NCBI GenBank assembly: GCA_009691725.1
Contig: SIAP01000003.1
Coordinates: forward strand, 1 to 64,000
Length of the DNA stretch: 64,000 nt
Direction of reading: 5' to 3'
Source: Phycisphaerales bacterium
Lineage (GTDB): Bacteria > Planctomycetota > Phycisphaerae > Phycisphaerales > SM1A02
The translations under genes and the position numbers were made by a program. The notes below the pieces were generated by a model, which saw only the letters and a list, made by a program, of their open reading frames with translations, did not search any database and had not been told where the DNA came from. Of this stretch, positions 34,683 to 41,611 are shown one piece after another. Each line of letters opens with the position of its first letter. Position 1 is the first letter of the stretch.

Positions 34683-35459
34683 ATGGACTCCTCTCCCCCA
34701 ACCGGCAATCCCCAGGACGACCTCTCGCCCATCCTGAGTCGTTGGGTGTTTGATGGGGGGCACCCACAACTGCGATTTCTTGAGGGAATCGAGGGAATTC
34801 GGAGGATTCAGATCAGACTTGAGGCTGGAATCCTGCAGTTCGAGGTCACCGGTCGGCCGGATGGGACGCGTCCCGAGGGGGCAGAGTCTTGGCTGGACTT
34901 CTGGATCTTCCGTTGTGAATCGAGAAGCGAGAGACCGTCCGTCTGCGATTTCGAGACGCTCCACGGGGAAGCCATTCTGTACCACCAACGTGCTGCAGCG
35001 TTTCTGATTCTGGAGGACTTTGCATCTGTTGTGCAGGACTGCCAACGGAACCTCCGCACAGTGGAGTTTGTGCAGTTGCGGGGCATGCACCTGGCGGATC
35101 AAGCATCATTTGAAACGATCAGACTTGCGGCGGTATTGATGCGCGCGCGAGCAGAAGCCGCAGCATGTGTGAAAGTTCGGGACACACAGGGGGCACTCGC
35201 AGCGATTGATCGAGGGCTCGCCGGATTGCGTGGCGACCTGTCACGCGCCGGGCAGAGTCAAGAGATCGGCGGTGCGCGGGGCGCAGATGCAGAATCGATT
35301 GAAGCGACAGTGCTGCGATCGATGCGCGATGCGCTCGTGCCCAAACTCCCGTCGAGTCAGCGTGTCGATCTTGAAGTTCGTTTGCGCCGCGCGCTGCAAC
35401 TTGAAAGATATGAGCTCGCCGCGATCCTTCGTAACGAGTTGCGGCAGATTGGCGACTAG
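34683..35459 (+). CDS. UVR (UvrB/UvrC) motif-containing protein
   Basis: C-terminal LEVRLRRALQLERYELAAILRNELRQIGD matches the UVR motif. N-terminal two-thirds unrecognised. Confidence 0.65.
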   Translation: MDSSPPTGNPQDDLSPILSRWVFDGGHPQLRFLEGIEGIRRIQIRLEAGILQFEVTGRPDGTRPEGAESWLDFWIFRCESRSERPSVCDFETLHGEAILYHQRAAAFLILEDFASVVQDCQRNLRTVEFVQLRGMHLADQASFETIRLAAVLMRARAEAAACVKVRDTQGALAAIDRGLAGLRGDLSRAGQSQEIGGARGADAESIEATVLRSMRDALVPKLPSSQRVDLEVRLRRALQLERYELAAILRNELRQIGD

Positions 35460-38011
35460 TTCGCCTGTGGCGCTGATGGGGGAGTGATGCTGGTCGTCGT
35501 GAATCCATCAATCATGCCGCCAAATGGCTCTCCGCCCAGGAGCGGATCCATCGCTCGCAGCCGCGCGATGCGCGCTTGCATGCGCTCGCCAGTGCGACCT
35601 GTTTCGTGAGCAATTCCTAACTGGATGACTTGTGCGATCCACCACGCCCGCGAACCCTCGTTGGCGCGTGCGGCGAGTTCGCGTGCCGCCTCCATCGCAC
35701 GGGTTTGTAATGCGCCGCGAGTGGATTCGTGGGGAGTTCCAACTGCGGCGTGCTGCGCAGCGTCGAGCACTTCTGTGAGTCTGCGCCAGTCGTCAGTCGT
35801 CGCACCATCAGCCGAGGCGATGCGCTGCGCTCGCAGGAGTGCGGCATCCCATTGCTGAGCGAATGCCGCAGCATCGGCGGCGAGTCGATCGAATTCCCTC
35901 GAGGTCTGCTGAGCGTCGGTCGTGCGCCCACTCTGAAGAACTGCTTCGCACGCCAGCGCTGCATCAAGCGCGCACTGCGCAGCAGCCGCCGCTGATGGTT
36001 CAGTTGCGCCGGCGGCGCGTGCAGCTTCGCAGTTTCGCAGCATGGATCGAACGATGCACTCCTGTGCGATGGATGGCGCACCTTCCACCAGAAAATGGGG
36101 GAGGTCGCGCAACTCTCGCTGGATGGCGAGCGAACGAGCATCGGGAGCCACTGAGGCGCGTTCAATGCGGACTTGCAGAATTCGCTGTGCATCATGACTG
36201 CTCCACTGCTGCCACGCGGCGGCCGTTGGAGGTGCGATCTCCGTCACGGCGATGGTCGCGCCGCTGGGCGGGAAATCGGCAACGATGCGCGCCATTGTGA
36301 TCGCCGCGGTGACACGCGATCCTGGATCGAAACCAGATTGAAGTGCAGTCGCACTCAATGCCTCCAACTTCTCTGCGGCAGTGGCGAATGCGGCAGCGTC
36401 AGCGACCGATCCCCAGCGGGGGCGGAGGAGGAATTGCGCCACGTTTCTGCGCATGGTGAGTGCTTCAAGTTGCGCGGCAGACCGTGCGCGCGTTGGCAAT
36501 TCAGCGAATCTGTTGAGCGCAAGCGAAAGCGTCGCCTCGAGGGCGTCGATCCGATCATCTGGTGAGGCCTTGTCGAGAGCGAGTTCGATGTCAAGAGCGG
36601 CACTGATCGCGTCCAGTGCGGCTGGATCCTCGTCGAACTCGTTAGCGAATCGTCGATAGTCGGCGGCCGCCAATCCCCAGGCGCCAGCGGTGGAGTGCAC
36701 TTCCGCCAACACGACGATCGCCGCGGCTTGTGCCTGGCGATCCGATACCTGCTTCGCCAGCTCCTCGAGCGTCACGATCTGCGCTGCGGAACTCGGATCG
36801 GCAAGCAGTTGATCGCGTGCCTGTGCGATCACAGCAAGCGGCGGCAGCGTCCCGAACACTGGTGCTCCCCTGAGCACCCCAGCGATGCGCTCGAGAACCG
36901 CACGCCGAACTCCAGCCACTTGGTCGCGGGGGGCGGAGGTGAGCGCGGCGATCCAAAGATTCAGAGTCACCTCATCTGATGGCGACTTCCCTAGATAAAT
37001 GCGCATTCGCACGAGCGCGTCAGCGATGAGGAGTTGCATCGCGGTGGGAAGTGTGTCGGTCTCCGCCAGCGCATTCAACTGCTGCAGTGCTTCAACTCCG
37101 CGGCGTTGTCGCACGAGACCATCAGCAAGCAGGATCCGCGCCAGAACTGTCATGACCACATCGTTGCCACGCATCACCCTCGATGATGCGAACCGCGCAG
37201 CTTCTGGATCCACTGCAACAGCAGCCGCGGCAACTTCAGCGAGATCTGCTTCCGGTCGCAGCCGTGAAGGGAGCGCGCTGCGAATCTCGGACAATGTCTT
37301 CAGCAGCGCCGCAGCCTCGATGGGGCGCTCGCGTTCCACCGTTGGGTCGTGTGCTGTTCGATGGATGGCGAGGGCAAGGGCACGTGCGGCTGCAGCGAGG
37401 AATGGGCGGCGAGCTCGTGCATCATCGTCCAATCGATGTGCGAGAGCGGACCCTATTGGAACAGAGGCTGAAGTGAGCGCTCCCTCTGCGGTTGTGGCTC
37501 GCTCAAGCAGATCGCGGATTCGCGCAAGCGATGCGCTCGCCCTCTGTGCTGCGTCGATGGTGGGAGATCCCGCAATTGCTTCTGCGCCGCCGTCCAAGCC
37601 AAGGAATCCAAATCGAAGTTCATCTTCCGCGGCATCGGTCATCCAGATGATCTGCCGTGGATCTTTCGGCAGCGCAGCGAAGAGCCCCGTCCGAGCGTGT
37701 CGCAATCGCGCGAGAGCGTCGACGCGCATGGCGTGATTGGAGGCGGTTCCAATCAACATCATCCGCCAGACCGCGATGGCACGAATGAATGGCGTCGCGG
37801 CATCGGTTGCAGCGGCGGCGGGCTCTGTGATCTCCAGATCGGCAAGCACCCGGTTCAATCCCAAGTCTGCGATGCCGCGCAAGAAGTCCTCTTCTCGCAT
37901 CGCATCGCACGTGGGATCCACATGCGACGGTGCCATCGACTGCGCAGCCGCAGCAGAGAATGGCGAGCACACGAACGACAACTGCAGGGCGAACAGGACG
38001 AACGATCTCAT
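35456..38011 (-). CDS. Large exported alpha-helical-repeat protein of unknown function
   Basis: Signal peptide MRSFVLFALQLSFVCSPFSAAAAQS, then about 825 Ala-rich helical residues. Overlaps the upstream exbD by 4 bp. Confidence 0.75.
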   Translation of the reverse strand: MRSFVLFALQLSFVCSPFSAAAAQSMAPSHVDPTCDAMREEDFLRGIADLGLNRVLADLEITEPAAAATDAATPFIRAIAVWRMMLIGTASNHAMRVDALARLRHARTGLFAALPKDPRQIIWMTDAAEDELRFGFLGLDGGAEAIAGSPTIDAAQRASASLARIRDLLERATTAEGALTSASVPIGSALAHRLDDDARARRPFLAAAARALALAIHRTAHDPTVERERPIEAAALLKTLSEIRSALPSRLRPEADLAEVAAAAVAVDPEAARFASSRVMRGNDVVMTVLARILLADGLVRQRRGVEALQQLNALAETDTLPTAMQLLIADALVRMRIYLGKSPSDEVTLNLWIAALTSAPRDQVAGVRRAVLERIAGVLRGAPVFGTLPPLAVIAQARDQLLADPSSAAQIVTLEELAKQVSDRQAQAAAIVVLAEVHSTAGAWGLAAADYRRFANEFDEDPAALDAISAALDIELALDKASPDDRIDALEATLSLALNRFAELPTRARSAAQLEALTMRRNVAQFLLRPRWGSVADAAAFATAAEKLEALSATALQSGFDPGSRVTAAITMARIVADFPPSGATIAVTEIAPPTAAAWQQWSSHDAQRILQVRIERASVAPDARSLAIQRELRDLPHFLVEGAPSIAQECIVRSMLRNCEAARAAGATEPSAAAAAQCALDAALACEAVLQSGRTTDAQQTSREFDRLAADAAAFAQQWDAALLRAQRIASADGATTDDWRRLTEVLDAAQHAAVGTPHESTRGALQTRAMEAARELAARANEGSRAWWIAQVIQLGIAHETGRTGERMQARIARLRAMDPLLGGEPFGGMIDGFTTTSITPPSAPQAN

Positions 38012-40952: not shown

Positions 40953-41611
40953 TGCTTGATGTCTTTCCTTGGAGCCGTGCTGCCCGCTGATGAGCGGGGC
41001 TTTGAGGAACTGCCGAGCATGCCGTCGACGCTCAGTGACCCTGATCCCAAGAGCGCGACCATCAGTGCGAGGACAAACAGACTCACCTGGGCGCAGATCT
41101 TGAGATGATCATCGTGTGGCATCGTCCACCAGCCCGTCTGCTGCAACGCTGGAAGCGAAATCATCCAGAATGCACCGCCGAGAACGAGTGCGAGCGCGAT
41201 GGCGGAGAGCCGTGAGAATGCTCCCAGAAAAAGCAGGACTGCACCCGCGAGTTGCGCAAGCGCTGCGAGCCACGCCGCGATTGCGGGATAGGGAACTCCA
41301 GCAGTGTGTGCCAACAGCGCGCTCTGATAGAGCGTGCGTCCGGAAAATGCTTCGGGTGGAAGCGTCGCATTTCCTGGTGGGGTCGCGCCGGTCTGCATCG
41401 ATCCAAAACCCGTGGACTGCACGGTCGTCCAGTCGATGCCCTCTGCGGTGATGCCGATCGATGCAAGCGTTGCCGCGTCGCTCGCCGTGCAGTGCACCGA
41501 TGAAAAAATCTGTTGCCATCCCATTGGAAAGAATGCAGCGAAGAGCACGATGCGAGCGATCAATGGAAGCAACTTGAATGCGCACGCTTCGCGAAGGGTC
41601 ATGGCTATCAT
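40949..41611 (-). CDS. DoxX family membrane protein
   Basis: LLPLIARIVLFAAFFPMGWQQIF...AAWLAALAQLAGAVLLFLGAFSRLSAIALALVLGGAFWM: DoxX-like TM pattern. Confidence 0.8.
   Translation of the reverse strand: MIAMTLREACAFKLLPLIARIVLFAAFFPMGWQQIFSSVHCTASDAATLASIGITAEGIDWTTVQSTGFGSMQTGATPPGNATLPPEAFSGRTLYQSALLAHTAGVPYPAIAAWLAALAQLAGAVLLFLGAFSRLSAIALALVLGGAFWMISLPALQQTGWWTMPHDDHLKICAQVSLFVLALMVALLGSGSLSVDGMLGSSSKPRSSAGSTAPRKDIKQ

Follow-up and report, generated by a model that had tools for sequence, protein, structure and literature searches.

A planctomycete operon for a probable proton-motive-force-driven envelope force transducer with a von Willebrand factor A domain

Described force transducers and the layout of the operon

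In MotAB, ExbBD and TolQR, the well-studied motors of one superfamily, the axle consists of two identical chains. TonB and TolA each carry a Ser-His pair (Ser16/His20 in TonB, Ser18/His22 in TolA) that contacts a Ser and a Trp in the first transmembrane helix (TM1) of ExbB or TolQ, and this contact network extends to a Pro in TM3 (PMC12215075). A class of "vWA force transducers" has been predicted computationally in PVC bacteria and is given the same gene set as the operon described here, with AlphaFold3 models in which the transducer helix is predicted to dock on the motor edge via its His (Williams-Jones et al. 2025, PMC12204202). This was the only paper found in a literature search joining ExbD, von Willebrand factor, TonB and Planctomycetes.

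The window (the whole 64,000-nucleotide stretch of Phycisphaerales DNA that was analysed) contains six open reading frames, in frame on the minus strand from 41602 to 35456, in the order doxX, VWA, exbB, exbD, exbD and a gene for a large exported protein. Successive junctions overlap by 4, 4, 4, 8 and 4 bp; the reading frames, their order and the overlap lengths all match the six-gene overlapping operon of an earlier, sequence-only reading. The features are as follows:

40949-41602, minus strand: doxX, first gene of the operon; 217 aa; Pfam DoxX 3e-9
39648-40952, minus strand: VWA gene, GTG start; 434 aa; Pfam VWA 4e-4, with AlphaFold2, Foldseek and profile matches
40902-40916, minus strand: Ser13-x3-His17 of the VWA membrane helix, by comparison a TonB/TolA SHLS-type docking motif
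38935-39651, minus strand: exbB; 238 aa; Pfam MotA_ExbB 3e-25
38468-38938, minus strand: exbD of the "first" lineage, GTG start; 156 aa; Pfam ExbD 6e-13
38008-38475, minus strand: exbD of the "second" lineage; 155 aa; Pfam ExbD 1.5e-13
35456-38011, minus strand: large exported protein; 851 aa; no Pfam match
41629-41711, plus strand: tRNA-Leu, divergent, bounding the operon at its start
34614-35459, plus strand: convergent gene, bounding the operon at its end
33559-34602 and 41767-44519: flanking genes (sigma-70 factor, class II DAHP synthase, ketoacyl synthase)

Judged by N-terminal sequences, these flanks appear to be shared by the window with the relatives L007 and L017-L019. Many operons have gene overlaps of this sort, and full overlap was rejected as a conserved property, since the junctions of 13 relatives range from -8 to +45 bp, being tight in all but overlapping not in all. 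It is thus the gene order that is conserved and not the overlap itself, and the six-gene order is kept in ten near-relative loci as well as in L017 and L018, at 54% ExbB identity. The doxX gene takes first position in the ten near relatives and in L017-L019, L071, L076 and L082. This linkage is partial, covering the window's genus and the numbered loci just named, and doxX was rejected as a universal part, as it was not found in the loci of other families of the order (e.g., L072-L075 and L078); DoxX may be a lineage-specific membrane accessory.

On its gene set and motifs, the operon is a member of the vWA force transducer class (PMC12204202), and it is consequently not the undescribed envelope machine that the sequence-only reading had proposed. 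Common to both are a single N-terminal helix with an SHLS-type Ser-x3-His, a disordered linker followed by a VWA domain that by topology would be periplasmic, and a tolQ-like gene adjacent to two different tolR-like genes. Here, in contrast, the operon opens with an additional doxX, the VWA gene lies upstream of the motor genes instead of following them, and the VWA protein is extended by a helical part at its C-terminus. Beyond the published account, parts of which may already imply some of these points, the present analysis adds an apparently ancient ExbD pair, independence from TonB, split operons, a partial doxX partner and a second copy in the same genome. The ring protein, the axle Asp and the Ser-x3-His helix are shared with TonB-ExbB-ExbD, where it is a docking helix, and with TolQ-TolR-TolA. 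Compared with the former, a VWA domain replaces the TonB C-domain, there are two different ExbDs and there is no receptor; compared with Tol-Pal, the operon lacks TolB and Pal, VWA replaces the TolA C-domain and the partner is TPR-like. The Zorya defence system has a related ring protein, ZorA, but the PADLOC match to ZorA was very weak, ZorB gave no PADLOC match and effector genes are absent from the operon.

The motor ring and the putative VWA docking helix

Its MotA_ExbB domain and pore Thr residues identify the operon's ExbB as a member of the ExbB/TolQ/MotA superfamily, and its sequence matches in the PDB are TolQ and ExbB. Ser46 in TM1, the two pore residues Thr152 and Thr186, and Pro195 in TM3 are invariant in the alignment. 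The TM1 Trp that contacts the Ser-His pair of TonB and TolA in E. coli is replaced by Ile or Val, indicating that the detail of docking may differ from that of the E. coli proteins.

Judging from sequence comparison, the key feature of the operon, overlooked in the sequence-only reading, is the N-terminus of the VWA protein, a single membrane helix WILSIAMHALLALVLL with Ser-x3-His. The presence of this putative motor-docking helix would explain why the VWA gene adjoins exbB. The motif is invariant among aligned VWA relatives with a complete N-terminus. Across related VWA proteins, including those from loci in other families, the His is found in 52/52 and the Ser in 49/52 (Ala in the other three), compared to Ser-x3-His in 12/314 membrane-like segments of unrelated ORFs from the same loci, a contrast that serves as a guide and not as a probability because the VWA relatives are not independent.

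The AlphaFold2 model of the VWA protein (pLDDT 76) predicts a transmembrane helix at residues 4-36, a disordered linker at 38-80 (low confidence), a helix at 83-108, the VWA domain at about 123-305 and C-terminal helical hairpins at 325-414. The Pfam VWA match (4e-4) falls under the curated cut-off, and the fold is supported by the structure model and by Foldseek; Foldseek and profile searches match the domain to inter-alpha-inhibitor heavy chains and CMG2. From the topology, the VWA domain is predicted to lie on the periplasmic side. The C-terminal helical part is missing from distant relatives. In L017 (7339-7851) and L018 (5071-5583), the metal-site motif of the VWA domain is broken (DGGGR versus DxSGS) with Ser-x3-His retained, so that metal-dependent binding is not universal. 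VWA genes with Ser-x3-His also occur with no ExbB or other motor gene nearby (L085 8105-9136, L088 8304-9209 and L077 7752-12124), and in L077 the VWA gene is directly followed by one for a 711-aa exported protein.

Two ExbD lineages and the large exported protein

Both ExbDs of the operon have the proton-site Asp at residue 21, within TPLID in the first and TPMID in the second, and the Asp is present in 87/87 ExbDs of the two lineages, in agreement with the claim that both retain a proton-pathway Asp. A phylum-wide tree of 71 rows was labelled by gene position alone, as the ExbD adjoining exbB or the other ExbD, and a single branch with support of 100/99 separates the two sets of labels. Among the loci in the tree are nine whose second ExbD is encoded on the opposite strand, as part of another operon. 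The two ExbDs could be interchangeable dosage copies, with an axle that is a homodimer of either one, and the identity of domain and Asp in both is consistent with this idea. Such an arrangement is nevertheless unlikely, as none of 500 label shuffles gave a split as low as the one by position and, in a second tree, a paralogous ExbD pair from the same genome lands on the matching sides, on long branches. The trees thus support an ancient pair of ExbDs that would not be interchangeable, giving the heteromeric plug suggested in the sequence-only reading strong evolutionary support, and both may be joined in one heterodimer.

Where the gene downstream of a relocated second ExbD was read, it encodes a large exported protein, indicating that the second ExbD and the large protein are linked. 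The strongest candidate for what the VWA domain grips is the TPR-like protein, because it keeps this link after the operon has split. In the window, the 851-aa product begins with an N-terminal signal sequence, and the N-termini of the large proteins mostly resemble Sec signals. Its AlphaFold2 model (pLDDT 83.5) consists of helices only, arranged as a TPR-like solenoid, bearing out the exported helical product expected from the sequence. Foldseek matches are to TPR scaffolds such as Ctr9, IFT-A and Ski3; the SprE complex of the T9SS and a periplasmic scaffold from Campylobacter rank lower. TM-scores are low throughout, so that this support reaches the fold type of the protein only. Pfam TPR models did not match the window's large protein and reached at best 0.03 in two relatives; of ten large proteins encoded at the equivalent position in other loci and families, several do match TPR Pfams. 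No PDB entry matched the large protein in a sequence search, and when large proteins from two clades were compared profile to profile, no homology was found despite their common position and fold type. The TPR-like solenoid is likely a direct partner or scaffold of the VWA protein.

Distribution, alternative readings and the proposed machine

A VWA-family profile matches 234 of 294 genomes sampled across the phylum, many of these matches being VWA domains alone, and the motor adjoins VWA genes with Ser/Ala-x3-His in 15 of 20 fetched loci. Far beyond close strains, the arrangement VWA-ExbB-ExbD-ExbD is found again in other families at the level of order, class and phylum, with a large ORF after it in most cases. 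The same genome contains a second, diverged cluster (L037, G000:C49:52000-68000, at 1537-10724), with a Ser-x3-His VWA gene and genes for a 395-aa protein, ExbB, two ExbDs and two large proteins. It also contains two copies of another TonB-like set (L039, G000:C44, 3169-5398; L040, G000:C17, 1240-4986). Small ExbB-like genes, joined in L039 by an ExbD-like one, are followed there by genes for proteins whose membrane helices contain SVGLH and whose long linkers are rich in Pro, Glu and Lys.

The presence of ExbB and ExbD with a TonB-like membrane helix raises the notion of TonB-type uptake, in which the VWA protein would energise an outer-membrane receptor. This reading is strongly disfavoured, as neither a TonB C-domain nor a TonB receptor was found in the operon's own genome, an absence that is provisional at 92.6% completeness. 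TonB C-domain proteins and TonB receptors occur or are lacking jointly in the genus genomes G294-G305, whereas the operon's large protein is present in 19/19 genus genomes, even at a genome size of 2 Mb. Bat loci also contain VWA and TPR proteins, and ExbB and ExbD could accordingly be incidental neighbours of a Bat-type VWA complex. We consider this highly improbable, since no MoxR or DUF58 gene was found in the operon or among the flanking genes, which belong to other families, and since both the VWA-ExbB-ExbD-ExbD order across families and Ser-x3-His are conserved. With the large protein constant, TonB and its receptors variable and TolB absent, the system is not Ton, Tol-Pal or Bat, and the distinction from all three drawn in the sequence-only reading holds, the operon having no TolB, Pal, receptor, MoxR or DUF58.

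From the sequences, the gene set, motifs, conservation and apparent independence from TonB and TolB, taken together with structure models and analogy, suggest that the operon probably encodes a proton-motive-force-driven envelope force transducer with the VWA protein as the transducer. We infer the assembly, stoichiometry, force and partner contacts of this machine as follows. ExbB would form a channel ring in the inner membrane, by analogy a pentamer, with the two different ExbDs as the central axle, contributing one proton-site Asp apiece. The VWA protein would dock on the exterior of the ring via the Ser13/His17 face of its helix, as TonB and TolA do, its flexible linker extending the VWA domain into the periplasm. 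By analogy with the solved Ton and Tol motors (PMC12215075), protons passing the ExbD Asp residues and the Thr ring of ExbB would set the axle in motion within the channel ring, and this motion would pull or turn the VWA domain, whose target may lie in the periplasm or the outer membrane.

The proposed transducer most likely serves the cell in maintaining its outer membrane or cell wall. A specific form of this explanation, which we regard as possible but less than even in probability, is an equivalent of Tol-Pal, in which the VWA protein stands for TolA and the TPR solenoid for TolB/CpoB, so that the outer membrane stays attached as the cell divides. The TolB N-domain was found in 0/21 genomes searched (the own genome and relatives) whereas OmpA/Pal-type peptidoglycan-binding proteins are present in 21/21, in the own genome elsewhere than in the operon, and the system is retained even in 2 Mb genomes. 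Against such a role, itself conjectural, stand the absence of Pal and TolB from the operon and the two such systems in one genome, the latter arguing for more than one task. More tentatively still, a 5:2-type motor with an obligate heterodimeric ExbD axle may drive the VWA transducer as the planctomycete replacement of Tol-Pal, the asymmetric axle giving the two proton sites different roles.

The two ExbD lineages, side by side across the phylum, provide a natural system for testing the equivalence of the two proton sites. The persistence of the system in small genomes where no TonB or TolB was found indicates that it may be a main route by which energy reaches the outer envelope of these bacteria.
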